64,000 bases of DNA from Dokdonella immobilis. Its GTDB lineage: Bacteria > Pseudomonadota > Gammaproteobacteria > Xanthomonadales > Rhodanobacteraceae. The stretch covers positions 62,001 through 126,000 of the forward strand of contig NZ_FOVF01000008.1 of the NCBI RefSeq assembly GCF_900115085.1, written 5' to 3'. The translations under genes and the position numbers were made by a program. Positions 51,392-64,000 of the stretch are shown here, piece after piece. Within the stretch, counting starts at the first letter, position 1, and each line of letters starts with the position of its first letter. A model generated the notes under the pieces. That model did no database searches, was not told where the DNA came from, and worked only from the letters and a program-made list of their open reading frames with translations.

Positions 51392-53149
51392 TCAGACCGG
51401 CTGCGGACTCTCGCCGGCAGCCTCGCCGGGGGTTGGCAACTGGTTGGCCGCCTCGAGGCGCTGGGCCAGGCGCACCAGCGATTCGACCGAATCGCACATG
51501 CTGCGCGCGATTTCACTTTCGCCCATGATCGTGGCGTCCGCGCCGGCCTTGTGCAGATAGGCGACCTCCTCGTCGGAGTGCGCGCGCGCAAGGATGGCCA
51601 ATCCCGGATTGGCCTCGCGGGCCAGCTTGATGATCGGGCCCGCCTCGAGGGCCTGGGAGATCGCCACCAGCAGCGCGCGCGCGCTGCCCAGATGGGCGTC
51701 GCTGAGCACTTCGGTCGAGACTGCGTTGCCGAAGATGCACGGAATGCCGAGCTTGCGCGCGTCGATGCAGTGGTCGCGGTCGGAATCGATCAGGACCAGC
51801 GGCATGCCGTGCTCGTGCAGCGCCCGGGCCACGCGCGAACCGACCTGGCCATAGCCGACCAGGATGATGTGGTTGGCGGTCGGAATGGCGGCGCGATCCG
51901 GCAGGATATCGTCTTCGCGGCTATCCAGTGAGCGCTCGGCGGCCGCATGGATCTCAGGCCCGTGAGCGGCCGACCAGCGATCGAGCAGGACGAACAGCAT
52001 TGGATTGACGATGATCGAAAGCAGCGCGGCGGCGAGGATCAGGTTGCGCGCGTCGGGGCTGAGCAGACCGAGGCTGACGCCCAGCGCGGCGAGGATGAAG
52101 GAAAACTCGCCGATCTGGGCCAGCCCGGTGGCCAGGGTCAGCTGGGTCTGCTTCGGCTGGCGAAAGATGCGGGTGACGATGAAGCCGCAAAACGAATTGC
52201 CGAGCACGATGATCAGGAAGGTGGCGAGGATCGCCAGTGGTTGCTCGAGCAGGATGTGCGGATCGAACAGCATGCCGACCGAAACGAAGAACAGCACGGC
52301 GAAGGCATCGCGCATCGGCAGCGAATCGTTGGCCGCCGCATGGCTGAGCTTGGACTCGTTGAGCATGACCCCGGCGAGGAACGCACCGAGCGCGAAGGAA
52401 ACCTCGAAGATCGCCGCGGAAACATACGCCACGCCAAGCGCGATCGCGAGCACGGCCAGGGTGAACAGTTCGCGCGAGCCGATGCTGGCGGTGCGCTCGA
52501 GTGCCCACGGAATGACGCGCCGGCCAATGGCCAGCATCAGCACGATGAAGACGGTGACCTTGCCAAGGGTCCAGCCCAGTGCACTGAGCAGGCTGCCGCG
52601 AGCGCCGGCATCGGCCGCATCACCGCCGAGCACGCCGGCCAGCGGCGGCAGCATGACCAGCACGAGCACCATCAGCAGGTCTTCGACGATCAGCCAGCCG
52701 ATCGCGATGCGACCGCGCTGGGTTTCGAGCAGGCGGCGTTCCTCGAGCGCGCGCATCAGGACCACCGTGCTGGCCACGGACAGGCAGACCCCGAAGATCA
52801 GCCCCGAACCCCAGCTCCAGTCCATGAACCAGCCGAGCAGCATGCCGAGACTGGTCGCCACGAGCACCTGGAACAGGGCGCCGGGCACGACGATCTTGCG
52901 CACCGCCCAGAGGTCGCCGATCGAGAAGTGGAGGCCCACGCCGAACATCAGCAGGATCACGCCGATTTCGGACAGTTGCTGGGCGATCGCCGAGTCGGCC
53001 ACGAATCCGGGCGTGAATGGACCGACCACGACCCCGGCGACGAGATAGCCGAACAACGGCGACAGGCGCAGGCGCTGGGCCAGCATGCCGAACACGAAGG
53101 CCAGGCAGATGCCGCCGACGAGCATCGCGATCAGGGGCGTATGGTGCAC
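51392..53149 (-). CDS. Kef-type K+/H+ antiporter with TrkA-N domain
   Basis: The 585-residue transporter has about 12 membrane helices of the CPA2 type: SPLFGYLVAGVVVGPFTPGF, SEIGVILLMFGVGLHFSIGD and GFIVTRIF. A cytosolic Rossmann RCK/TrkA-N domain (IILVGYGQVGSRVARALHEH, near 435) could sense NAD(H) or thiols. It resembles YbaL/KefB of enterics and probably exchanges K+ or Na+ for protons. The start is GTG 53149, six bases after GGAGGG. It converges on the ABM-like gene with one base between stops. Confidence 0.92.
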   Translation of the reverse strand: MHHTPLIAMLVGGICLAFVFGMLAQRLRLSPLFGYLVAGVVVGPFTPGFVADSAIAQQLSEIGVILLMFGVGLHFSIGDLWAVRKIVVPGALFQVLVATSLGMLLGWFMDWSWGSGLIFGVCLSVASTVVLMRALEERRLLETQRGRIAIGWLIVEDLLMVLVLVMLPPLAGVLGGDAADAGARGSLLSALGWTLGKVTVFIVLMLAIGRRVIPWALERTASIGSRELFTLAVLAIALGVAYVSAAIFEVSFALGAFLAGVMLNESKLSHAAANDSLPMRDAFAVLFFVSVGMLFDPHILLEQPLAILATFLIIVLGNSFCGFIVTRIFRQPKQTQLTLATGLAQIGEFSFILAALGVSLGLLSPDARNLILAAALLSIIVNPMLFVLLDRWSAAHGPEIHAAAERSLDSREDDILPDRAAIPTANHIILVGYGQVGSRVARALHEHGMPLVLIDSDRDHCIDARKLGIPCIFGNAVSTEVLSDAHLGSARALLVAISQALEAGPIIKLAREANPGLAILARAHSDEEVAYLHKAGADATIMGESEIARSMCDSVESLVRLAQRLEAANQLPTPGEAAGESPQPV

Positions 53150-53293
53150 GTTCGTCCCTCCTTCACCCGCGCGAGCATCGCTCGGGCGTGGACTTCACTA
53201 TAGCAAGCGTCGATCGGGCCACGCGCTCGGCACACGCCCATGCACGGCGCGCGTGCGGCGCGGCCGGGTCGAATTGAAGGGACCTGCCTGAGA

Positions 53294-53881
53294 TCAGCGA
53301 ACGGGGCAGTACTCGAGCTTCGGGATGTCGGCGTAGAACGACCACAGCTGCGAGTAACCACTCAGCAGCTCGGCCTGCAGCGCCGCCGACCAGACCCTGC
53401 CGCAGGCGGCATGGCGCGCCTTCGCGTCGGCCGGGCAGGCGTCGGTGAACGTGTAGTAATCCGATGCCTCGCTCATCGTGCAATGACAGGTCACGCTGCC
53501 GTCCGCATGCACCGCGCACGGGGCGTCGAGGCAGAACGCCCAGACTCCGGCATCCTCCCCCGTGCACGCGAGCGAGTGCTTGGCCGCTTTTTTCGCGGTG
53601 CGCGTGAGGTCCCAGACCGAGAACGTCGAGGTCAGCGTCGCGGCGCGCGATTGGCAGGTCGAATCGCCGATGTTGAGTCCATCGAGTGGGCCTTCACAAC
53701 GGCAGGTCGCGTGCTGCGGATCCTTCGCGTCGATGCTGCAGGCGGCCGACGAGCACAGCGCGTAGCGTCCGTCGCAGATCTGCTGGCCGCCGGAACTGTT
53801 GGCGCGAGCCAGCGTGAGCGCGGAGACACCGGCAAGCACGACCGATGTGAGGATCGACGCGAAGCGGAATCCGGAGTCCAT
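53294..53881 (-). CDS. Secreted cysteine-rich protein, unknown function
   Basis: The 195-residue protein has a signal peptide (cleavage near ARA-NS at about residue 31) and about 14 cysteines spaced through the mature part, for example CDGRYALCSSAAC, CRCEGPLDGLNIGDSTC and CHCTMSEASDYYTFTDAC. A compact disulfide-rich exported domain is expected. I do not recognise the family. GAGGA lies about six bases before ATG 53881. It sits after trpE and is transcribed in the same direction. Confidence 0.7.
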   Translation of the reverse strand: MDSGFRFASILTSVVLAGVSALTLARANSSGGQQICDGRYALCSSAACSIDAKDPQHATCRCEGPLDGLNIGDSTCQSRAATLTSTFSVWDLTRTAKKAAKHSLACTGEDAGVWAFCLDAPCAVHADGSVTCHCTMSEASDYYTFTDACPADAKARHAACGRVWSAALQAELLSGYSQLWSFYADIPKLEYCPVR

Positions 53882-53985
53882 GGCAACGTCCTCGAAGCGA
53901 AGGTCATCGCAGGCTAGCATCCACTCTGCGCGAACTTCCAGTTCTATCGATGTGGCGCCCGTGGAATCGCAAGAGCCACGTCTGC

Positions 53986-55461
53986 TCAGAGGCCAGCGGC
54001 CGCCTTCGTGACCGCACGGAACAGGGCGCGGCCTTTGTTCATCGTCTCCTCCCACTCGGTAGCGGGATCGGAGTCGTAGACGATGCCAGCGCCGGCCTGC
54101 ACATGCAGGCGCCCGTCTTGGATCACTGCGGTGCGGATCGCGATCGCGGTGTCGGTGTCGCCGTCCCAGCCGATGTAGCCGATCGCGCCGGCGTAGATGT
54201 TGCGCTTGATCGGTTCGAGTTCGCGGATCACCTCGAGCGCGCGGATCTTCGGCGCGCCGCTGACCGTGCCGGCCGGGAACGATGCCTTCAGTACATCCAT
54301 GGAATTGAGGCCCTCGCGCAGCTCGCCTTCGACCTGGCTGACGATGTGCATGACGTGCGAATAGCGCTCGACCACGAAACTGTCGGTGAGTCGCACCGTG
54401 CCGGTCCTGCTGACCCGGCCGACGTCGTTGCGGCCGAGGTCGATCAGCATCAGGTGCTCGGCACGCTCCTTCGGATCGGCGAGCAGCTCGGCCTCGAGGG
54501 CAAGATCTGCTTCGGGAGTCGCGCCGCGCGGGCGCGTGCCGGCAATGGGACGCAAGGTCACGCGGCCCTTCTGTTGGCGCACGAGGATCTCCGGCGATGA
54601 GCCGACGATCTGGGTCGCGCCGAGGTCGATGAAATACATGTACGGCGACGGATTCATCGAACGCAGGGCGCGGTAGACGTCGACCGGCCGCGCGCGGAAC
54701 GGCACGCTGAGGCGCTGCGACAGTACGACCTGGAAGATGTCGCCAGCGCGGATGTAGTCCTGGGCCCGGCGCACGGCGTTCTCGAAGCCTTCGCGCGTGA
54801 AGCCCGATACGAAGTCCGATTCATCCAGGGGCTTCGGATCGAGCGTTTCCGGATAGCTCGAGCCCGCGTGGCGCAGGCGGAATGCGAGCTGGTCGAGGCG
54901 CCGGCAGGCCTGCGCGTAGGCCTGCGGCTGGGCCGGTTCGGCATGTACGATCAGGTATAGCCGGCCCTTGAGGTTATCGAAGACCGCGACTTCCTCGCTC
55001 AGCATCAGCAGCGCGTCGGGCGTGCCGAGCGGGTCGGGCTTGTCGTCCATGGCGAATCGCGGTTCGATCCAGCCGATCGTTTCGAAGCCGAAATAGCCGA
55101 CCAGCCCGCCGGTGAAGGCCGGCATGTCGGGCAGCACCGGCACGCGGTACTGCGCCCGCAACGCTTCGATCTCGGCGAGCGGATCGGCCAGTTCGCGCGT
55201 CTCGACGACTTCACCGAGGTCCTCGATGCGAAGCGTGCGCCCGCGCAGCGAATGGATGCGCCGGCAGGGCAAGCCGATGATCGAGTGGCGTCCCCAGTTC
55301 TCGCCGCCCTGCACCGACTCGAGCAGGTAGGCATAGGGACCATCGGCGAGCTTGAGGTAGACCGAAAGCGGCGTGTCGAGATCCGAGAGCACCTCGCGCA
55401 TGACCGGAATGCGGTTGTAACCCTGCGCGGCGAGCGCGTTGAATTCGTCCTGGCTGATCAC
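53986..55461 (-). CDS. trpE: Anthranilate synthase component I
   Basis: The 491-residue chorismate-binding enzyme makes anthranilate using ammonia from TrpG. LDTPLSVYLKLADGPYAYLL and SIIGLPCRRI lie in the feedback-binding N-domain. DIFQVVLSQRLSVPF, PSPYMYFIDLG, LRPIAGTRPRG, DLGRNDVGRV and SFPAGTVSGAPKIRA are catalytic motifs. GTG 55461 gives VISQDEFNALAAQGYNRIP, the start expected for Xanthomonad TrpE; the frame to 55572 crosses a repeat. trpG-trpD-trpC lie 5-8 kb away with pirin, LysR and antiporter genes in between. Confidence 0.94.
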   Translation of the reverse strand: MISQDEFNALAAQGYNRIPVMREVLSDLDTPLSVYLKLADGPYAYLLESVQGGENWGRHSIIGLPCRRIHSLRGRTLRIEDLGEVVETRELADPLAEIEALRAQYRVPVLPDMPAFTGGLVGYFGFETIGWIEPRFAMDDKPDPLGTPDALLMLSEEVAVFDNLKGRLYLIVHAEPAQPQAYAQACRRLDQLAFRLRHAGSSYPETLDPKPLDESDFVSGFTREGFENAVRRAQDYIRAGDIFQVVLSQRLSVPFRARPVDVYRALRSMNPSPYMYFIDLGATQIVGSSPEILVRQQKGRVTLRPIAGTRPRGATPEADLALEAELLADPKERAEHLMLIDLGRNDVGRVSRTGTVRLTDSFVVERYSHVMHIVSQVEGELREGLNSMDVLKASFPAGTVSGAPKIRALEVIRELEPIKRNIYAGAIGYIGWDGDTDTAIAIRTAVIQDGRLHVQAGAGIVYDSDPATEWEETMNKGRALFRAVTKAAAGL

Positions 55462-55548
55462 GAAACGGGTCTTCGGCGGCGGGCGGCCCGAGAAGATAGC
55501 AGGGCCCAACCGGGTGCAAAAGCGCCGTCTGGATCCACCAGGGAGGAT

Positions 55549-55643
55549 CTGAACAAGTGGAACAACCGCCACGACGCCTGCCTGCGCGCAGGCAGGCGTC
55601 GCCCAAGCGATTGATTCAATGAACCAAGGGTGGCGTCCACAAG
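55549..55643. repeat. Dispersed palindromic repeat upstream of trpE
   Basis: A perfect 15 + 15 bp palindrome (cgacgcctgcctgcg and its complement, 55572-55601) lies between gtggaacaaccgcca and gcccaagcgattgattcaat. The whole unit matches 24731-24892, where the palindrome is interrupted. Its left part also resembles 62120-62151 at the start of the sortase gene. Confidence 0.8.
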
Positions 55644-55670
55644 GCCCGGCCCAGGCGTCGCGCCAAATCC

Positions 55671-56702
55671 CTATCCGTCGCCGAATCCGTCGGCGAAGAT
55701 GGCATCGAGGACGACCACGGCCGGATCGCGGACGATGTCGTAGTCGCCGCTGCCGAGTGGCGATTCGCGGCCCCAGTAGAGCTCGACGAGACCGGGCGAC
55801 GCGCCGACCAGCGGGTGGGGTTCGACGTCGTTCTCATCGGCGCTCGCCGTCACGACGATGTCATCGCTCCAGTTCGCCCCATCCGCCGAGCGGCGCGCCG
55901 CGATGTCGAACTGGCCACCGGCCTCGCGAATCCAGAACAGGACGAACGCATCGTCCCGCATCACCACCGGCAGTGAATCGTGGTTGTTGCCGCTCGTCGC
56001 AAACGCCTGCGCCGGCGCGCCCCAGTCGCGCAGGTCGGTCGTGGTCTTGACCCACATCTGCAGGTCCGTGCCGCCGGTCTGGTAGCTGGCCAGATAGAGG
56101 CCGTCGCTGTCACGATAGGTGATCCGCGGCAACTGGCCATTGGCGTTGATCGCGGTCTGTTGTGCATCCCAGGTCACCCCGCCGTCGCTCGATTCGGCGA
56201 CGTAGACGCCGCCCGAGAGGCGCTGGTAGCTCATCGTCAGCCTGCCGTCCGCGCGGCGGATCACGTGCGGATTGACCTCGCCGCCGGTCGCCCAGCCGAG
56301 GTCGAGCATGCCCTGTTCGCTGAAGGTGATGCCGTCGCTGCTGGTCGCGCGCCACAGGCGGTAGCTCGAACCCGCGCCACTGCCCTTCAGATAGAACAGC
56401 GCAAACGCACCCGGTGCCGTCTCGACCAGGGCCGGGTGGCGTTCGTTCGCGGCGCTCGCGATGATCGGGACCGGTGGACTCCAGGTCTGGCCGCCGTCGA
56501 TCGATCGGGTCAGCCACAGGTCGCCGGACACCGACGCATCCAGGCGTTCGAAGACGACGATGCGGGCGCCGCCGCTGCTCGCGCGCAGGATCGCGGCCTG
56601 GTAGTCGAGCCCGCTGCCCGAGGTCACCGGTTGCACGCTGGCCGCGGCCAGCGCCGGCAACATGCCGAGCAGCACGAAGGCGCATGCACGAATCATGGTC
56701 AT
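55671..56702 (-). CDS. Secreted BNR-repeat (sialidase-like) protein coupled to pdsS
   Basis: The 343-residue protein has a signal peptide (cleavage near LAAAS at about residue 21) and then a six-bladed sialidase-like propeller. Asp-box motifs are SIDGGQTW, SSDGITF, SSDGGVTW and SADGANW. The Arg triad of true sialidases is not evident, so binding rather than hydrolysis is likely. It ends in VVVLDAIFADGFGDG, the IFxDGF tail also found in the cupredoxin-like protein. Its start overlaps the pdsS stop by four bases (ATGA), placing it in the pds operon. It may be an exported partner or target of the sortase system; that is an inference. Confidence 0.8.
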   Translation of the reverse strand: MTMIRACAFVLLGMLPALAAASVQPVTSGSGLDYQAAILRASSGGARIVVFERLDASVSGDLWLTRSIDGGQTWSPPVPIIASAANERHPALVETAPGAFALFYLKGSGAGSSYRLWRATSSDGITFSEQGMLDLGWATGGEVNPHVIRRADGRLTMSYQRLSGGVYVAESSDGGVTWDAQQTAINANGQLPRITYRDSDGLYLASYQTGGTDLQMWVKTTTDLRDWGAPAQAFATSGNNHDSLPVVMRDDAFVLFWIREAGGQFDIAARRSADGANWSDDIVVTASADENDVEPHPLVGASPGLVELYWGRESPLGSGDYDIVRDPAVVVLDAIFADGFGDG

Positions 56703-58744
56703 GTGGAATCACTCTCGCTGAGGCGTCGGCGCGGCATGCCGGCCAGGCGCAGGCTGAATTCGACGCCGCTGCCGTCGGCGAGATTCGCCGCCGAGGCGCG
56801 TCCACGGTGCAGCTCGGCGACCAACCGCACGACATGCAGGCCGAGCCCGAGATGGGGTGTCTCGCCGGCCGTCCGACTCGAGCGTTCGCGCAGGCTCACG
56901 AGCGAATCGAACAGGCGATCCTGGAGCTGCCTCGGCAGCGCGGGGCCGCTGTTGGCCATCGTCACGAGCACGCCGCCATGCTCAGCGCGCAGGCCGATCG
57001 CGATCCAGCCATCCTCGGCGCTGAACGAGCGCGCGTTGTCGAACAGCTTGTCGAGCGCCTGGGCGAGCAGGTCCGGTGCGCCATGGAACGGCAGCGGCGA
57101 GTCCGGCAGGCTCACGCGCAGGTCACGCGTGCCGGCCAGGGCCCGATAGCCTTCGGCGCATCCGGCGACCAGCGCACGCAGGTCGAAGTCCTCGGCATCG
57201 GCCGATGCGATGGCGCGCTCGACGCGACTCGATTCACTCATCGCGCGGACGATCGCACCGAGCCGTCCGGCCCCGTCGCGGGCGCGGTCGAGATAGGACT
57301 GCGAGTCGGCCGGCAAGCCCTGGTGATCGAGATTGTCGAGCGAGGACTTGACGATCGCGAGCGGTGTGTTGAGCTCGTGCGAGAGTTTCGAGGCCAGCGT
57401 GCGCAGGTACTCGGTGTAGGCCTCGACTTCGTCGAACAGGCGGCCGAAGCTGCGCGCGAGGTCGCCCAGTTCGTCGTTGGCGTCCGCCAGCGGCAACGGG
57501 CCTGACAGGCGGCCGCCGGCGCGCGTGGCGCGCTCGGTGGCATTGCGCAGGCGCCGGATGCGCCAGCTCAACAGGCCGCCGAACAGCAACAGCAGTGCGG
57601 CGGTGACGAGCAGGGCCAGCAGGCTCGCGCCGAGCAGACTCGACAGGGCACGGTTGGCCAGCATCGGCAAGGCCGGATTGGCCTGTTCGAGGACGAGGGC
57701 GCCGAGCAAGGCATCGCGGCTGCGCAAGGGCACCGCGGCGACCAGCAGCACGCCGCCGTCGTCGCTCGATCGCCATCCGGTCGCCGGCGCCCCGGACAGG
57801 GCCTGCCAGAGATCCTCGCCCTGCAGGCGCGGGTCGATCGTGCCGAACGCGTCCACGTTCGGTCGCCTCGCCGTCGCATCGGTGGACTCCGGGGCGAGCA
57901 GGTTGCGATAGATCAGTCCGGCCAGCCAGCCCTGCTGGGCGGACGAGGGCGCCACCGCATCGAGCGAACCGCCCGCGGCGACCAGCCAGCCATCGGCAGA
58001 AACCATGCGCACGCGCACGTGTTCGGGGGCCAGTCGCGCCAGCATGTGCGCGGTCGTTTCGTTGTAGCCGAGCAGGGCCAGCGCCTGTCCCGGCACCGGA
58101 TCCGGCACCGCCGAGTCGTGCACGTCGAAGCGCAGGTGGTCGGGTACTTCGTCGCGTCGCATGCGCAACTCGATGCTGTAGCTCGAGCCGTCTTCCTGCC
58201 ATTCGCCGGTCAGGCGATCGGGAAACGGGCCGATGCCGTCGATGGCCGGCGCATCGAAGCTGCCCGGAGCCGCGCTGGCGATCCGGTAGCGCCGGCTCTG
58301 ATCGCCTCGGCTCAGGACCAGGTCGAGATAGTCGCTGCGTGCGATCGCCGGGTCGCGCGCGTCGACGCGCTGGCGGGTTGCATCGCGGACCTGGGCGAAC
58401 AGGTAAAGCCACTGCGCATCCTCGGCGAGCATGACCTCGAGTTTCGCGCTGTCGCCATCGGCGGCGAAAGTCTGCGCATAGGCACGGAACGGTTGCCAGT
58501 CATCGGCGTAGCCATCGATCCGCAGCACCGTGCTGCGCTCGTGCACATAGAGTGCGGCATCGGGTTGCGGCGGCTCGATGCCGAGCACGTCGAGTGCGCG
58601 CGCCAGGGTGCTCGCCGAGGCCAGCAGGGTCTGCTCCTGGCCCTGGCGCAACACCGCCTCGGTCTGGCGCACGAACTGCCAGCCAGCCCAGGGCAAGGTC
58701 AGGGTCGAGAGGGCGACGAGCAGGAGTTTCAGGCGGAGGGACAT
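56699..58744 (-). CDS. pdsS: Sortase-system histidine kinase, PdsS-like
   Basis: The 681-residue kinase has an N-terminal membrane helix and a large periplasmic domain with a DOMON/CBM9-like part (TVLRIDGYADDWQPFRAYAQ near 75-94, then SDYLDLVLSRGD). A second membrane helix follows (LLALLVTAALLLLFGGLL near 375), then HAMP, HisKA (LASKLSHELNTPLAIVK, His456) and HATPase (LFDNARSF, LGLGLHVVRLV). It matches TIGR03785, the kinase dedicated to class GN sortase loci. pdsR is transcribed in the same direction with 251 bp between. The sensed ligand could be a carbohydrate or heme, judged only by fold. Confidence 0.9.
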   Translation of the reverse strand: MSLRLKLLLVALSTLTLPWAGWQFVRQTEAVLRQGQEQTLLASASTLARALDVLGIEPPQPDAALYVHERSTVLRIDGYADDWQPFRAYAQTFAADGDSAKLEVMLAEDAQWLYLFAQVRDATRQRVDARDPAIARSDYLDLVLSRGDQSRRYRIASAAPGSFDAPAIDGIGPFPDRLTGEWQEDGSSYSIELRMRRDEVPDHLRFDVHDSAVPDPVPGQALALLGYNETTAHMLARLAPEHVRVRMVSADGWLVAAGGSLDAVAPSSAQQGWLAGLIYRNLLAPESTDATARRPNVDAFGTIDPRLQGEDLWQALSGAPATGWRSSDDGGVLLVAAVPLRSRDALLGALVLEQANPALPMLANRALSSLLGASLLALLVTAALLLLFGGLLSWRIRRLRNATERATRAGGRLSGPLPLADANDELGDLARSFGRLFDEVEAYTEYLRTLASKLSHELNTPLAIVKSSLDNLDHQGLPADSQSYLDRARDGAGRLGAIVRAMSESSRVERAIASADAEDFDLRALVAGCAEGYRALAGTRDLRVSLPDSPLPFHGAPDLLAQALDKLFDNARSFSAEDGWIAIGLRAEHGGVLVTMANSGPALPRQLQDRLFDSLVSLRERSSRTAGETPHLGLGLHVVRLVAELHRGRASAANLADGSGVEFSLRLAGMPRRRLSESDST

Positions 58745-58749
58745 TCAGG

Positions 58750-58990
58750 GGCCGGGAATGGAGAATGGGGAATGGAGAATCGATGAGGAGCAGTGCTTTT
58801 CAAGATTCCGCTCTGCTTATTCAAATGGCCATTCAGCAATCGAAGCTCGCTCGGCAACTGCGATGGTTGAATCATTTCGGGAAACCCGGCTTTTTCCATT
58901 CCCGACTCCCCATTCCCGACTCCCCATTCCCCATTCCCAGTTCCAACTCATTCCCGGCTCCAACCCATTCCCTATTCCCCATTGTCCATT
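58750..58990. repeat. GGGAATGGGGAATGG-type repeats in inverted orientation between pdsR and pdsS
   Basis: gggaatggagaatggggaat lies at 58754-58773, and ccattcccgactccccattc repeats several times at 58898-58985. They form long inverted complements around a loop of about 120 bp. No ORF with support lies in the 251-bp pdsR-pdsS spacer. Confidence 0.75.
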
Positions 58991-58995
58991 CCCGG

Positions 58996-59691
58996 CTAGC
59001 CCCGACCAACCCACCGATACCCCGCACCATGCACGGTGTCGATGGCGTCGAAGGCCGGGTCGATGGCGAGGAACTTGCGGCGGATGCGTTTGATGTGGGA
59101 GGTGATGGTGGCGTCGTCGACGACGACCTGGGCGTCGCGCATGAGTTGTTCGCGGCTCTTCACGTGGCCGGGGAAGCGCACGAGGGTGTGCACCATCCAG
59201 AATTCGGTCACGGTCAGCGGCACTTCCTCGCCGTTCCAGGTCACGCGCATGCGTTCGGATTCGAGGCGCAGCGGGCCCTGTTCGTGGACGCTGTCGGCGA
59301 CGGTCGGCTTGCGCAGCGCCTCCATGCGCCGGAACAGCGCGCTGATGCGTGCAGCGAGCTGGTGGAACGAGACGTCCTTGGCCAGGTAGTCGTCGGCGCC
59401 GAGGCGTAGTCCGGAAATCACGTCGAAATCCGAGTCGCGCGCGGTCAGGAAGATGATCGGCAGGGTCGGCGCCCTGGCCCGCAGGCTGCGACAGAGGTCG
59501 AAGCCGCCCTCGGGTTCGTCGCCGAGGCCGACATCGATGATGACCAGCTCGGGCATGCGCTGGGCGAAGGCGGTTTCGGCCTCGATGCGACCGGCATGGC
59601 CGCGCACTTCGTAACCGGCGCGGGTCAGGGCCTCGACATAGTTGGCCCGGATCAACGGTTCGTCTTCGACGATGGCGATGCTGCGCGGCAT
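58996..59691 (-). CDS. pdsR: Sortase-system response regulator, PdsR-like
   Basis: The 231-residue OmpR-type regulator has a receiver domain (IAIVEDEPLIRANYVEAL, phospho-acceptor Asp53 in LVIIDVGLGDEPEGG, Lys in DYLAKDVSF) and a C-terminal winged helix (PLTVTEFWMVHTLVRFPGHV, DDATITSHIKRIRRKF, DTVHGAGYRWVG). It fits TIGR03787, the regulator of the proteobacterial dedicated sortase system. It is divergent from the sortase target gene, 173 bp apart, a natural place for its binding site. Confidence 0.92.
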   Translation of the reverse strand: MPRSIAIVEDEPLIRANYVEALTRAGYEVRGHAGRIEAETAFAQRMPELVIIDVGLGDEPEGGFDLCRSLRARAPTLPIIFLTARDSDFDVISGLRLGADDYLAKDVSFHQLAARISALFRRMEALRKPTVADSVHEQGPLRLESERMRVTWNGEEVPLTVTEFWMVHTLVRFPGHVKSREQLMRDAQVVVDDATITSHIKRIRRKFLAIDPAFDAIDTVHGAGYRWVGRG

Positions 59692-59864
59692 TGGCGGTAC
59701 TCCCGGGACTGGAATCGAGCTTACGCAGCGCCGCGGGCCGTGCGCAATGCGCGGGGCGCATTTGCCCGCAAATCGCCAGAACTCGTCGCCGGCCTGCCCG
59801 CGTCGCGTCGCCGTCGCGGCCGCGGCCGACGCTGCAATGGCAGCGAACCCGACCGGAGCGTGCG

Positions 59865-61892
59865 ATGAAAGCGAACCGCAGCGAAAAAGACACCGATCTC
59901 GAACGCGGCTTCGAGCCGCTGCGTACGATCTTCGCCCTGCTCGTCCTGCTGCTCGGCTTCGCCGCCGGCGCGCGCGCCGAAACCGGATTCGGCACGATCA
60001 AGGCAACGGCCAGGGACGGCCAACCTTTCGAACTCGTTGCGCTGGCCAGCGATGTCCACTACCAGATCGGCGGGCTCATCGCCGAAGCCAGCATCCGCCA
60101 GCGCTTCAGCAATTCCAGCAACGACTGGGTCGAGGTCGAGTACCTGCTGCCCCTGCCCGACGGCGCGGCCGTGCACGACATGACCCTGCGGGTCGGCGAG
60201 CGCGTCATCGTCGGCGAGATCCGCGAGAAGGAACAGGCCCGCGCCGAATACGTCGAAGCCGCGGCCAGCGGCAAGCGTGCGGCCCTGGTCGAGGCCGACC
60301 GGGCCAACCTGTTCCGCACGGCGGTGGCGAATGTCGGACCGGGCGAGACGATCGAAGTCGAGGTGCGCTGGTGGCAGACGATCCAGTATCGCGACGACCG
60401 CTTCACGCTGAGCCTGCCGCTGACCTATACCCCGCGCTATGCCTCACAGCAGGCCCTCTCCGCCGAAATTCCGAGCATCGACGACGCCCTGGCCGGATAT
60501 GACTATGAGCGCCTCTCGACCACGCACGACGACGTCCACTCGAACAACGCGCCACGGGTCGAGGTCCGCATCGATCTCGATCCAGGCGTAAGCCTGAGCC
60601 GCATCGAGAGTTCGAGCCACGCGATCACGGTCGCCCGTCGCGGCGCGGCCTATTCGATCAGCCTCGCCGATGGCCCGGTGCCGGCCGATTGCGACTTCGT
60701 GCTCGAGTGGACGCCGGTCCTCGGAAAGGCGCCGGCCTCGGCGGTGCTGACCGAAACCGTCGACGGCGACACCTATGCGATGGTCATGATGCTGCCGAAC
60801 AGCCAGCTCAGCCGTCCGCTGCCGCGCGAGCTGATCCTCGTCATCGACACCTCGGGCTCGATGGGCGGCGAGTCGATCCGCCAGGCCCAGGCCGCGCTCG
60901 ACCTCGCCCTGGCCTCGTTGCGCCCGAACGACCGGTTCAACGTGATCCAGTTCAATTCGGTCACCGAGGCCCTGTTCGACAGCGCCGTGCCGGCCAGCCC
61001 GCGCGACGTCGCCCTGGCCCGCGAGTGGGTCGGTCGCCTGTACGCCACTGGCGGCACCGAAATGCTCGGTGCGCTGCGCACGGCCCTGCAGGGTACGCCG
61101 CCACCCGGCTACGTGCGCCAGGTCGTGTTCGCCACCGATGGCGCGGTCGACAATGCCGCCGGCCTGTATAGCCTGATCGATCGCGAACTGGGCCAGTCGC
61201 GGCTGTTCCCGATCGGCATCGGCAGCGCGCCGAATGCGCAGTTCATCGCCCGCGCGGCGACCTCGGGTCGCGGTTCCTCGATCGTGATCCGCGGCCCGGC
61301 CGAGGTTGGCGAGCGCATGCGCGAACTGTTCGGAAAACTCGATCGCCCGGCCCTGCGCGACCTCAGCCTGAGCTGGCCCGGCACGGCCGAGGTCTATCCT
61401 GAGCGCCTGCCCGACCTGTATGCCGGCGAGCCGCTGCTGGTCGTGGCCCGGGTGTCCGCTCTGAACGGGACCCTCGAGGCGCGCGCTGCCAGCAGCGAGG
61501 CGCCGTGGGCGGCCTCGCTGGCGCTCGCTCGCGCGGCCACGGCTGGCGGAATCGCGCGGCTCTGGGCGCAACGCAAGATCGAGAGCCTCGAACAGTCGCT
61601 CGAGCGCGGCGCCAATGCCGCCGAGGTCCGCAACGAGGTGCTCGGGCTGGCCATCGCGCACCATCTGGTCAGCCCGTACACGAGCCTGATTGCGGTCGAC
61701 CGCACCCCGGCACGCGACCCGATGCTCGACCTCGCCTCGCATCGCATCGCCAACGGCCAGCCGGCAGGCAGCCTGGCCTATGCGGCGACCGCGACCTCGG
61801 CGCCGCTGCAGTTCCTGATCGGCCTGGTTCTGCTTGCCCTGGCTGCCCTGCTGGCCTGCGGCGGACGTCGCCGCGGCGATCTGGCTGCTTGA
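59865..61892 (+). CDS. pdsP: VIT/VWA sortase target protein, PdsP-like
   Basis: The 675-residue protein has a membrane-spanning signal region (RTIFALLVLLLGFAAGARAE, 20-39), a VIT domain (about 55-165: VHYQIGGLIAEASIRQRFSN, VEVEYLLPLPDGAAVH) and a VWA domain with the MIDAS motif DTSGSMGG (Asp328). A C-terminal helix and basic end follow (FLIGLVLLALAALL then CGGRRRG). This is TIGR03788, the target of the class GN sortase. The region before the helix reads AYAATATSAPLQ, a weak version of the expected LPxTA-like signal without Leu-Pro. ATG 59865 has GGAG seven bases upstream. Confidence 0.9.
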   Translation: MKANRSEKDTDLERGFEPLRTIFALLVLLLGFAAGARAETGFGTIKATARDGQPFELVALASDVHYQIGGLIAEASIRQRFSNSSNDWVEVEYLLPLPDGAAVHDMTLRVGERVIVGEIREKEQARAEYVEAAASGKRAALVEADRANLFRTAVANVGPGETIEVEVRWWQTIQYRDDRFTLSLPLTYTPRYASQQALSAEIPSIDDALAGYDYERLSTTHDDVHSNNAPRVEVRIDLDPGVSLSRIESSSHAITVARRGAAYSISLADGPVPADCDFVLEWTPVLGKAPASAVLTETVDGDTYAMVMMLPNSQLSRPLPRELILVIDTSGSMGGESIRQAQAALDLALASLRPNDRFNVIQFNSVTEALFDSAVPASPRDVALAREWVGRLYATGGTEMLGALRTALQGTPPPGYVRQVVFATDGAVDNAAGLYSLIDRELGQSRLFPIGIGSAPNAQFIARAATSGRGSSIVIRGPAEVGERMRELFGKLDRPALRDLSLSWPGTAEVYPERLPDLYAGEPLLVVARVSALNGTLEARAASSEAPWAASLALARAATAGGIARLWAQRKIESLEQSLERGANAAEVRNEVLGLAIAHHLVSPYTSLIAVDRTPARDPMLDLASHRIANGQPAGSLAYAATATSAPLQFLIGLVLLALAALLACGGRRRGDLAA

Positions 61893-61930
61893 TCAGACCG
61901 TCCCTGACCCACTGAACCAGGAGATCCGTC

Positions 61931-62116
61931 ATGTCTTTTTCACTCTTTGCACAACGCCGCGGCAACGCCGCTTCGACGCAGGCCAGCCCGGCGTTCGAGG
62001 GCGACTGGTTCGGCGCCGAGGCCTGGGTGGTCGCGGCCGGACTGGCCGAACGCCACGCCGAAGCCGACCGCGAAGTGCGCGTCGAGGACGCAGCCAGCGA
62101 TTGGCTGCCGCTCTAG
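61931..62116 (+). CDS. 61-residue protein between sortase target and sortase, unknown
   Basis: The frame starts MSFSLFAQRRGNAASTQASP and continues AFEGDWFGAEAWVVAAGLAE to an acidic tail ending DWLPL. It has AGGAG seven bases upstream of the ATG and lies 38 bp after pdsP and 14 bp before the sortase ATG, all in one direction. No signal peptide or membrane helix is visible. I do not recognise a family, and it is not one of the named Pds components I know. Context argues for a role with the sortase. Confidence 0.65.
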   Translation: MSFSLFAQRRGNAASTQASPAFEGDWFGAEAWVVAAGLAERHAEADREVRVEDAASDWLPL

Positions 62117-62130
62117 GGGGATCTGAACCA

Positions 62131-62817
62131 ATGGCACAACCATCACGACGACTGGCCCTGCTGCTCGCACTGTGCGCCTGCATGCCGCTCGGCCACGCGA
62201 GCTATATGCAGGCCAAGGCCGGCCTGGCCCAGGTCCTGCTGCGACAGGCCTGGCAGCGGCATCTCGAGAGCGGCGACGCGGCCCGGCCGTGGCCCTGGGC
62301 CGACATGTCGCCCGTGGCGCGCCTGCGCGTGGCCCGCCTCGGCGTCGACGAGATCGTGCTGAGTGGCGATTCGGGCCGCACCCTGGCCTTCGGTCCGGGC
62401 TGGGCCGAATCGAGTGCGCCGCCGGCGTCGTCCGGTCTCAGTGTCATCAGCGCGCACCGCGACACCCACTTCGCCTTTCTGCGCCAGCTCAGCGTCGGCG
62501 ATGCGATCACGCTCGATGCGATGCACGAAGCGGAAGACTACCGCGTGGCATCGATCCGAATCGTCGACGCCCGCCATGAGCGCATCGAGACCGCGACCGC
62601 GGCCGATGCGCTGCTGCTGGTCACCTGCTATCCGTTCGATGCCCTCGACCCAGGTGGCCCGTTGCGCTACGTGGTCACCGCCGTGCCGGGCCGATCGGCC
62701 CAGCCGGCGGTTACGCAGGCTCAGGCCTTCGGTGCGTCGTCGCTCTCGTCCTCGTCGATCGGCGGCGCCTGGTCGGGACCGCCGGACATGCCGGGACCGC
62801 CGCGCATGCCTGGATGA
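62131..62817 (+). CDS. Class GN sortase (proteobacterial)
   Basis: The 228-residue protein begins with a signal-anchor (RRLALLLALCACMPLGHASY, 6-25). Catalytic residues of sortases are all present: His109 in VISAHRDTHFAFL, Cys166 in LLLVTCYPFDAL and Arg179 in GPLRYVVTAV. RLRVARLGVDEIVLSGDSG is the family N-terminal strand. It matches TIGR03784, the class GN sortase of Gram-negatives. The tail from residue 186, Ala/Ser/Pro/Gly-rich, lies antisense to the next gene over 97 bp, and the family normally ends shortly after the Arg. The codons around the start resemble a dispersed repeat. Confidence 0.9.
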   Translation: MAQPSRRLALLLALCACMPLGHASYMQAKAGLAQVLLRQAWQRHLESGDAARPWPWADMSPVARLRVARLGVDEIVLSGDSGRTLAFGPGWAESSAPPASSGLSVISAHRDTHFAFLRQLSVGDAITLDAMHEAEDYRVASIRIVDARHERIETATAADALLLVTCYPFDALDPGGPLRYVVTAVPGRSAQPAVTQAQAFGASSLSSSSIGGAWSGPPDMPGPPRMPG

Positions 62818-63167
62818 CGACGATCACCATGCTTGCCGCGCGCATGCATGCGACCCTCTCCGCGACCGTGGCCGTGCGACAGTTTCCATTCGGCATACTT
62901 GCGATAGCCCTCGTCACCGAGCGCCTTGCGCAGCTTCTGCGCCGTGTCGGCGTCGATGCGCTCGCGCTCGGCGCGCTGCTTGGCGAACAGGTCGGCATAG
63001 GCCGAGCGACGCTCGTTCTCGATACGGTGGATGGTCTCCTGCTGGGCAGCGCTCGTGTCGGGCAGGGTCGCGAGCATTTCGTAGGAGTTCGGCCCGCGGG
63101 CCTGGCTGACCGCGCTCGCGCCGACGAGCAGGGCGGCGATGACGGCATTTCGGATGGCAGTTCTCAT
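62721..63167 (-). CDS. Secreted Spy/CpxP-like periplasmic protein
   Basis: The 148-residue protein has a signal peptide (cleavage near SQARG at about residue 24) and a helical part: LPDTSAAQQETIHRIENERR, AYADLFAKQRAERERI and LRKALGDEGYRKYAEWKL. These resemble Spy/CpxP or heavy-metal resistance proteins. A Gly/His/Met-rich tail follows (GHGRGEGRMHARGKHG, then MRGGPGMSGGP) that could bind metal. GAGGAAA precedes ATG 63167. Its stop lies within the end of the convergent sortase gene. The BaeS-like kinase starts 247 bp away on the other strand; together they suggest an envelope-stress unit. Confidence 0.7.
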   Translation of the reverse strand: MRTAIRNAVIAALLVGASAVSQARGPNSYEMLATLPDTSAAQQETIHRIENERRSAYADLFAKQRAERERIDADTAQKLRKALGDEGYRKYAEWKLSHGHGRGEGRMHARGKHGDRRHPGMRGGPGMSGGPDQAPPIDEDESDDAPKA

Positions 63168-63413
63168 GGGGATTTCCTCGTTGGGGATGGTGAGGTGGAT
63201 GAAGCGACCCCGGACCAGGACCGGGAGTGGGAGCGGGAGGGTTCGGTGCACGCGCTCATAGCCTGAGTCGCGCCGGCCCGGGGTCGATTCAGGCTCCACC
63301 CTACGCCGCCAATGCGCAGCGAATACGCAGGAATCGTGGATTTTTTGCGCAACCCGGACGCGCGCCCGCCAACGGCGCTATGGTGTCGCCATGCTTTCCG
63401 TTCTCACCCGCCC

Positions 63414-64000
63414 ATGAAGCTGCGTCTCTGGCAACGCCTGTTCCTGACCTTTGCCGCGATCAGCAGCCTGGCCCTGGCCGCCTTCGTGATCTGGCAGCAG
63501 CAGACGTTCCGCAAGGGCTTTCTCGGCTATCTCGATGAAGTCGCGCTCGAACGCCTGCAGCCGGTCAGCGAACGCCTGGCGATCGCGTATTCCGAAAACG
63601 GCGGGTGGACCTTCCTGCGCGGTGATCCGCGCGCGTTTGCCGACCTGATCGAACCCGATCTGCGCCGCGGCCAGCGCATACCGCGGCATCGACCGCCACT
63701 CGACCGGTCCGGATCCGACGACGAACCACCACCGCCGCGCGACGACGACTGGCGCCGTCCACCACCACCAAGGCACGGTCCGGAGCGGGCCCGGCGGGCG
63801 CATCTGGCCGAGCTGAACCTGCTTTCTCGGCTGCTGCTGGTCGACGCGCGCGGCCTGCCGGTGGTCGGCGATCCCGAGATCGCCGGCGCTGCGGCCAGCC
63901 TGCCGATCGAGGTCGATGGCCAGACGGTCGGCACCCTGTACCTGCGTCGGTTGCCGCAGTTGCGTGGCGATACCGACCTTTCGTTCGCCCGCGACCAGCT
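63414..64000 (+). CDS. Sensor histidine kinase, BaeS-like (5' part; continues past the window)
   Basis: The first 195 residues are present. A membrane helix (FLTFAAISSLALAAFVIW) is followed by FRKGFLGYLDEVALERLQPV and AIAYSENGGWTFLRGDPRAF, which correspond to the periplasmic domain of E. coli BaeS (FERGFIDYIKHGNEQRLQLL, NWRFLRNN). The unusual Pro/Asp/Arg-rich stretch (RPPLDRSGSDDEPPPP near 90) is an insertion. DTDLSFARDQ starts the segment before the second helix, and the frame is open to the end of the window. The neighbouring Spy/CpxP-like protein fits a BaeSR-type envelope response. The catalytic part lies outside. Confidence 0.8.
   Translation, partial: MKLRLWQRLFLTFAAISSLALAAFVIWQQQTFRKGFLGYLDEVALERLQPVSERLAIAYSENGGWTFLRGDPRAFADLIEPDLRRGQRIPRHRPPLDRSGSDDEPPPPRDDDWRRPPPPRHGPERARRAHLAELNLLSRLLLVDARGLPVVGDPEIAGAAASLPIEVDGQTVGTLYLRRLPQLRGDTDLSFARDQ

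Follow-up and report, generated by a model that had tools for sequence, protein, structure and literature searches.

Class GN sortase locus without pdsO in Dokdonella immobilis: PdsR-PdsS and two microprotein families often persist without the sortase in related genomes

The pds locus of Dokdonella immobilis

The window, i.e. the whole 64 kb stretch of Dokdonella immobilis DNA analysed here, with coordinates counted from its first letter, contains genes for the response regulator PdsR and the sensor kinase PdsS on one strand and, on the other, genes for a VIT/VWA target and a class GN sortase. All four lie where the original prediction, made from the sequence alone, had placed them, as judged from their open reading frames (ORFs) and NCBIfam scores. 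The same prediction took the missing pdsO gene as the mark of a variant Pds system. Yet the missing gene is not the surprise of this locus; the surprise is that the sensor-regulator pair and two families of microproteins, named A and B here, are often kept in related genomes after loss of sortase and target. The features of the locus are as follows.

55671-56702, minus strand: BNR protein of 343 residues (ORF; putative signal peptide; BNR_2)
56699-58744, minus strand: PdsS-type sensor kinase of 681 residues (ORF; best family TIGR03785)
58996-59691, minus strand: PdsR response regulator of 231 residues (TIGR03787)
59761-59796, plus strand: conserved operator-like element, TTGCCCGCAAATCGCCAGAACTCGTC..., a putative PdsR box (motif model)
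59865-61892, plus strand: VIT/VWA sortase target of 675 residues (TIGR03788; Pfam VIT and VWA_3)
59865-59972, plus strand: microprotein A-like N-terminus of the target (MKANRSEKDTDLERGFEPLRTIFALLVLLLGFAAGA; held-out model of A)
61779-61796, plus strand: variant sorting motif YAATAT (position derived by hand from the sequence; C-termini of relatives)
61931-62116, plus strand: 61-residue microprotein of family B (held-out model of B)
62131-62817, plus strand: class GN sortase of 228 residues (TIGR03784)

Three of the core proteins score above their NCBIfam cut-offs, namely the sortase (TIGR03784, 206.8 bits, cut-off 158.25), the target (TIGR03788, 638.4 bits, cut-off 551.65) and PdsR (TIGR03787, 358.5 bits, cut-off 335.7). 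For PdsS, TIGR03785 is the top family and matches nearly the full length, at 506.5 bits under a cut-off of 612.2. The genome has one class GN sortase match, that of the window, and the target adjoins it; going by a section of one published account, the sortase of described systems likewise adjoins a single vault-type target (PMC3237569). The locus is thus a genuine Gram-negative class GN sortase locus without pdsO. It resembles the Pds system (TIGR03784, TIGR03785, TIGR03787, TIGR03788 and TIGR03789) in its sortase, target and PdsR and in a kinase best matched by the PdsS model, but differs from it in the lack of pdsO, the kinase score, the sorting motif YAATAT, the fusion of A to the target and the placement of B between target and sortase, as well as in the fact that, in the family, regulator and microproteins outlive the sortase.

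In the target, YAATAT stands at the place expected of an LPxTG-like sorting signal, and a hydrophobic segment and a basic tail follow it at the C-terminus. The corresponding motif reads LPQTAT or LPNTAT in distant loci, FAQTAT in three related genera (labelled g22, g25 and g19), FAATAT in the related genome G036 and YAATAT in the genus of the window (g1), and the proline of the usual motif has therefore been replaced in the family. In the sortase, H109, C166 and R179, which we take to be candidate active-site residues, are invariant in six aligned family members.

Regulator and microproteins without a sortase

Our comparison family comprises 233 genomes and is, we assume, the Rhodanobacteraceae; its genomes are labelled Gnnn, the genera named below g1, g4, g19, g22 and g25, and loci inside or outside the family Lnnn. 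PdsR scores above its cut-off in 205 of the 233 genomes. The sortase model matches 18 of them, 17 above the cut-off and the eighteenth (G029) with its gene split over two contigs. Target and sortase are additions, missing from most genomes of the family. Forty sortase-less loci around pdsR, from 20 genera, were hand-picked from among the matches listed; none of them has a target or sortase match (0/40), and A stands beside pdsR in 35, at an E value of 1.2e-10 or better. Further sortase-less loci, fetched for their BNR genes, have A in all seven cases with pdsR on the fetched stretch. Beyond the family, a class-wide sample of 369 genomes contains PdsR above the cut-off in 58 and a sortase match in 56. 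Both occur in 34 genomes, PdsR alone in 24 and the sortase alone in 22 (seven of the latter with a PdsR match below the cut-off), so that regulator and sortase are only partly coupled there as well.

In each of two trees of 44 sequences, one of PdsR plus PdsS and the other of target plus sortase, the family group comes out (with support of 1.0 and 0.986, respectively), and so do g1 with PS02065 and g4, g25, and g19 with g22; a grouping of g19, g22 and g25 appears in the PdsR-PdsS tree only (0.839). Because the two trees agree, the sequences fit a history in which sortase and target were inherited together with pdsRS and then repeatedly lost. One such loss is seen in G021, a genome from the genus of the window, where pdsR still has beside it B and the N-terminal part of a target (matched over 59 residues, at 59 percent), while no sortase match is found in the genome, which is 87 percent complete.

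The A and B microprotein families

A is a protein of about 38 residues with a single hydrophobic segment and an N-A-E-L..E-P-L-R motif. In the window it forms the N-terminus of the target: a model of A built without g1 matches the target ORF at an E value of 5.3e-10, the next best match in the window being at 0.92. For B, a model likewise built without g1 picks the 61-residue ORF at 2e-6 from all six frames of the 64 kb window (next best 0.3). This held-out match, together with a G+C content by codon position (0.74/0.55/0.79) much like that of the sortase gene (0.72/0.58/0.83), shows that the small gene predicted before the sortase is real and more than a chance ORF. The window's B protein reads ...DWFGAEAWV...DWLPL, and B-type ORFs of the sortase-bearing family members contain a W-L-G-[AG]-E-A-type motif at the centre, a D-W-x-P-L-type motif at the end, or both. 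Judged by its sequences, B is a fast-evolving microprotein family. The pooled ratio of nonsynonymous to synonymous substitution rates (dN/dS) of the A core is 0.36, from 602 non-independent pairs. Searches of Pfam and NCBIfam with nine sequences (A forms, B forms and one Arenimonas ORF) returned no family at an E value of 5 or less.

A and B, recognized by model, motif or reading of frames, occur in each of the 18 family genomes that have a sortase, and their place relative to the other genes takes three forms. Target and sortase come after them in g19, g22 and g25 (order A, B, target, sortase) and ahead of them in g4 (order target, sortase, A, B; seen in G036 and, on its split contig, in G029); in g1 the target begins with A, and B separates target from sortase. 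Our wider sample consists of named sortase loci, the best 80 of at least 550 confirmed relatives, and leans to near relatives; A is carried by 12 of the 80, all from the family or PS02065. In 67 sortase loci outside the family group, A has no match at an E value of 1 or less (best value for reversed sequences, 0.13), and a broader spread of A and B beyond the family and PS02065 was rejected on this basis.

Several loci contain further ORFs near these positions. Eight Arenimonas-type loci (L064, L065, L066, L068, L070, L075, L076 and L080) have a different, well-conserved ORF of 60 to 64 residues (MVLI...TAQEAP) in the target-sortase gap, which could not be joined to B. Gap ORFs in L058, L060 and L095, ending in DWQPL, EWQPI and DWWPL, may be distant members of B, although no model joins them. 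In G231, the A-B pair and the target are set apart by a 1633-residue ORF (L027, 1575-6476 in coordinates of the turned locus), and minus-strand ORFs occupy the same gap in L028 and L030.

An operator-like element between the divergent genes

pdsR and pdsS are divergent from the A-B pair across a conserved DNA element. The motif, which recurs between pdsR and the divergent gene, has the consensus TTGCCCGCGTTTTGCCACAATTCGTC; 84 of the 93 intergenes used for training score at least 14.8 bits, and four score under 4. The window site, with two TGCC-type half-sites about 11 bp apart, reaches 36.8 bits, as compared with 15.5 for the next site and 21.8 for the largest value in 20 shuffled windows. It is also recovered by models trained on sortase-less loci outside g1 alone (29.4 bits; next site 17.7) or on sortase-bearing loci outside g1 and g4 alone (34.6 bits; next site 16.2). 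With a model trained on 39 loci outside the family group, a site scoring above 12 bits is found in 31 of 38 intergenes from sortase-less loci and in none of the 38 after shuffling. Within its own genome, the element is the one perfect match to the pattern and the sole site with fewer than three mismatches; three other places have three mismatches, the same number as in the backward control. From these sequence comparisons we regard the element at 59761-59796 as a putative PdsR box.

The absence of pdsO

The original prediction found no pdsO in the locus, and we find none either. Seven OmpA-type matches occur in the genome, all under the cut-off, the best at 80.8 bits against a TIGR03789 cut-off of 152.2, and a PdsO encoded at a distance from the locus was accordingly rejected. 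A PdsO above the cut-off is found neither in the 18 family genomes with a sortase nor in the 49 diverse sortase genomes searched (of 50 chosen from the wider sample of named loci), 32 of which have an OmpA-type match at an E value of 1e-15 or less. In four Pseudomonadota class GN loci (L094, from Motiliproteus, L102, L104 and L122), a PdsO-like gene does lie directly upstream of the target, with PdsO as the top family at 99.6 to 145.4 bits, all under the cut-off. These loci resemble that of the window in having target and sortase adjacent and a gene upstream of the target, but differ in that this slot holds an OmpA-type PdsO-like gene where the family has A, or A and B. Since such genes were found in the expected slot, the method is able to detect them, and their absence is the usual state in the sample. 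Being so common among the genomes sampled, a missing pdsO does not mark a variant system; with 0/49 diverse genomes reaching the cut-off, we treat PdsO as accessory.

The PdsS sensor and its BNR neighbour

PdsS has a periplasmic CBM9-like region at about residues 71-217, followed by a second sensor domain, HAMP, HisKA and HATPase. A profile of 30 PdsS sensor regions compared with solved structures finds CBM9 modules of xylanases, and Pfam CBM9_1 is matched by 4 of the 30 relatives. The predicted structure of the sensor (mean predicted local distance difference test score, pLDDT, 82.7) has CBM9 modules as its top three Foldseek matches, with template modelling (TM) scores of 0.54 to 0.57 normalized to the target, and sensor structures of WalK rank lower. 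The region thus resembles the CBM9 modules 1i82, 7nwn and 7nwo in both profile and fold, but the likeness is weak (TM score to the query at most 0.31; 15 to 17 percent identity) and the PdsS region sits in the sensor of a kinase where CBM9 sits in a xylanase. Because profile and predicted structure both lead to CBM9, a carbohydrate is the likely signal for PdsS.

Directly behind pdsS, the start codon of the BNR gene overlaps the pdsS stop by four bases (ATGA, 56699-56702), as first proposed. The protein matches Pfam BNR_2 at an E value of 2e-13 and is predicted to form a six-bladed sialidase-like propeller (AlphaFold2 pLDDT 86.0), i.e. the six-bladed propeller with BNR repeats characteristic of GH33 sialidases. 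The predicted fold is most like the Porphyromonas sialidase 8gn6 (E value 4.7e-13, TM score to the query 0.70), with the propeller lectins PLL and PHL also among the matches; it differs from these proteins in being just 19 percent identical to the best match and in lacking large extra domains.

A neighbourhood comparison had been suggested to see whether the BNR and 61-residue genes recur beside related loci, and both do. Orthologues of BNR are found in 24 of 230 family genomes, from three genera, nine of which have a sortase match and 15 of which do not; the genomes with BNR and those with the sortase belong to the same few genera. Among sortase-bearing genomes, pdsS has BNR behind it in the window, G026, G024 and G036, and also in PS02065 (L056); in UBA2363 (L095), BNR lies behind the sortase. 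Fourteen BNR loci were fetched. Seven of these (L133-L138 and L144) have the order pdsR-pdsS-BNR with trpE beyond, in genomes without a sortase match, and L143, on a short contig, has pdsS-BNR, so that the pdsS-BNR adjacency is seen in two genera whether the sortase is present or not. A tie between BNR and the sortase, as originally suggested, is not upheld by these loci. Nor is BNR supported as a sortase substrate: it ends in IFADGFGDG, which lacks the motif, the hydrophobic stretch and the basic tail that the target has, and this missing signal, together with its persistence without a sortase, led to its rejection as a sorted protein. For the same reasons, and because it stands beside pdsS with or without a sortase, a role as sensory partner is more probable for BNR than one as substrate, and it may be an exported ligand binder, the other role first suggested.

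The C-terminal tail [IL]F.DGF occurs in BNR proteins of seven loci and in three other ORFs in about 0.98 Mb scanned (window 55671-55700, L028, L030, L033, L034, L138, L139, L143 and L145), and is perhaps a shared C-terminal signal.

Other features of the neighbourhood

A convergent gene (62721-63299) overlaps the 3' end of the sortase gene. The gene is also present in L032, L033 and L035, and behind it in these three relatives lies a further two-component pair, with kinase and regulator matching at 27 to 36 percent. Simple repeats of the GGGAATGGGGAATGG type lie between pdsS and pdsR at 58750-58990. A dispersed repeat, TCTGAACAAGTGGCACAACCGTCACGACG and onward, has window copies at 55546-55576 and 62120-62150, one of which covers the ribosome-binding region and start of the sortase gene; it occurs at 22 places in the genome with at most three mismatches (none in the backward control), and no copy turned up in any of five relatives searched. 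A mobile element framed by the copies at 55546 and 62120 finds no support: relatives share the order trpE, pdsS, pdsR, target, sortase, and the search of the five did not recover the repeat. No known RNA element scored at its gathering threshold within 53000-64000, and terminator-like sites number three, as compared with 3.2 in shuffles.

A proposed lasting core and a dispensable output

We slightly favour a reading in which a glycan-responsive regulator and A/B form the lasting core of the system and sortase and target are a dispensable output. This core appears to be older in the family than the presence of the sortase suggests. PdsS would sense a glycan via its CBM9-like domain, optionally assisted by BNR, a secreted propeller that would bind glycan as well, and PdsR would bind the TTGCC-type repeat at 59761-59796 and switch on the divergent operon. 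A would be a small inner-membrane protein and B a soluble partner, the two acting to tune either PdsS or the envelope. In loci that retain target and sortase, the target would be exported (in g1 on an A-derived leader), cleaved and anchored at YAATAT. A further-reaching version, held more tentatively and at somewhat less than even confidence, is that PdsR-PdsS is in essence no regulator of a sortase but a glycan-sensing envelope system whose lasting targets are the membrane-associated A and B, with sortase and target as one dispensable output and with A captured in g1 as the export leader of the substrate. A and B may then act back on the kinase or reshape the envelope.

A number of observations weigh against such a lasting glycan-responsive core. 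On the side of the sensor, the CBM9 profile matches are weak (7nwn at an E value of 9.4e-5, with a best single stretch of 0.029; 1i82 at 6.1e-4, in one stretch over residues 72-217), and the sensor of the window's own PdsS has no Pfam match. As for the microproteins, A was not found in five of the 40 sortase-less loci (L149, L150, L151, L158 and L171, three of them from one genus), B or its short form reaches an E value below 1e-3 in just 17 of the 40, and the short form in g19 and g22 is joined to B by its place and DW.PL ending alone, with no shared model. BNR is found elsewhere in six of the 14 fetched loci, those of the g25 genomes carrying it (G226 by position only), is absent next to pdsS in G019, from the genus of the window, and, family-wide, accompanies the sortase more often than expected at random (odds ratio 13, Fisher p 8e-6, in a test that ignores kinship). 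Finally, a scan for sigma-70-like promoters found no site, as compared with 0.5 in shuffles.

Of the alternatives, the one that survives best, though still unlikely, is an ordinary dedicated sortase system with two bystanders, BNR and the 61-residue gene, and with A as no more than the signal peptide of the target. The four core genes do match known families, B evolves fast and BNR linkage is limited to two genera and PS02065 and, placed elsewhere, UBA2363. Speaking against it are the persistence of A and B beside pdsR without target or sortase, their three different relative positions, the purifying selection on A and the operator-like site in front that outside-trained models recover.

Clearly less probable is the view that A and B are functionless relics: once the sortase was lost, the target would have been cut down to its leader (A), with B as the gene that followed it. 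G021, with its target stub, B and no sortase match, resembles such a process, and A is indeed the leader of the target in g1. Against this stand the conservation of the A motif in 35 of 40 loci across 20 genera, its dN/dS of 0.36 and the occurrence of A and target as separate genes of the same locus in g4, g19, g22 and g25. The least probable of all is the original model, in which BNR replaces PdsO as exported partner or substrate of the sortase: BNR overlaps pdsS, recurs in the sortase loci L053, L055, L056 and L033 (behind the sortase in L095) and is associated with the sortase family-wide if kinship is ignored, but the 15 of 24 BNR genomes without a sortase match, the seven with pdsR-pdsS-BNR among these and the missing sorting signal make it very improbable.

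Concluding remarks

A regulator named after a sortase is far commoner in this family than the sortase itself, and keeps company with two unclassified microproteins and an operator-like site. This provides names and models for two families of short genes that are easily overlooked in annotation, as well as a concrete entry point for asking what the PdsR-PdsS system senses and controls.

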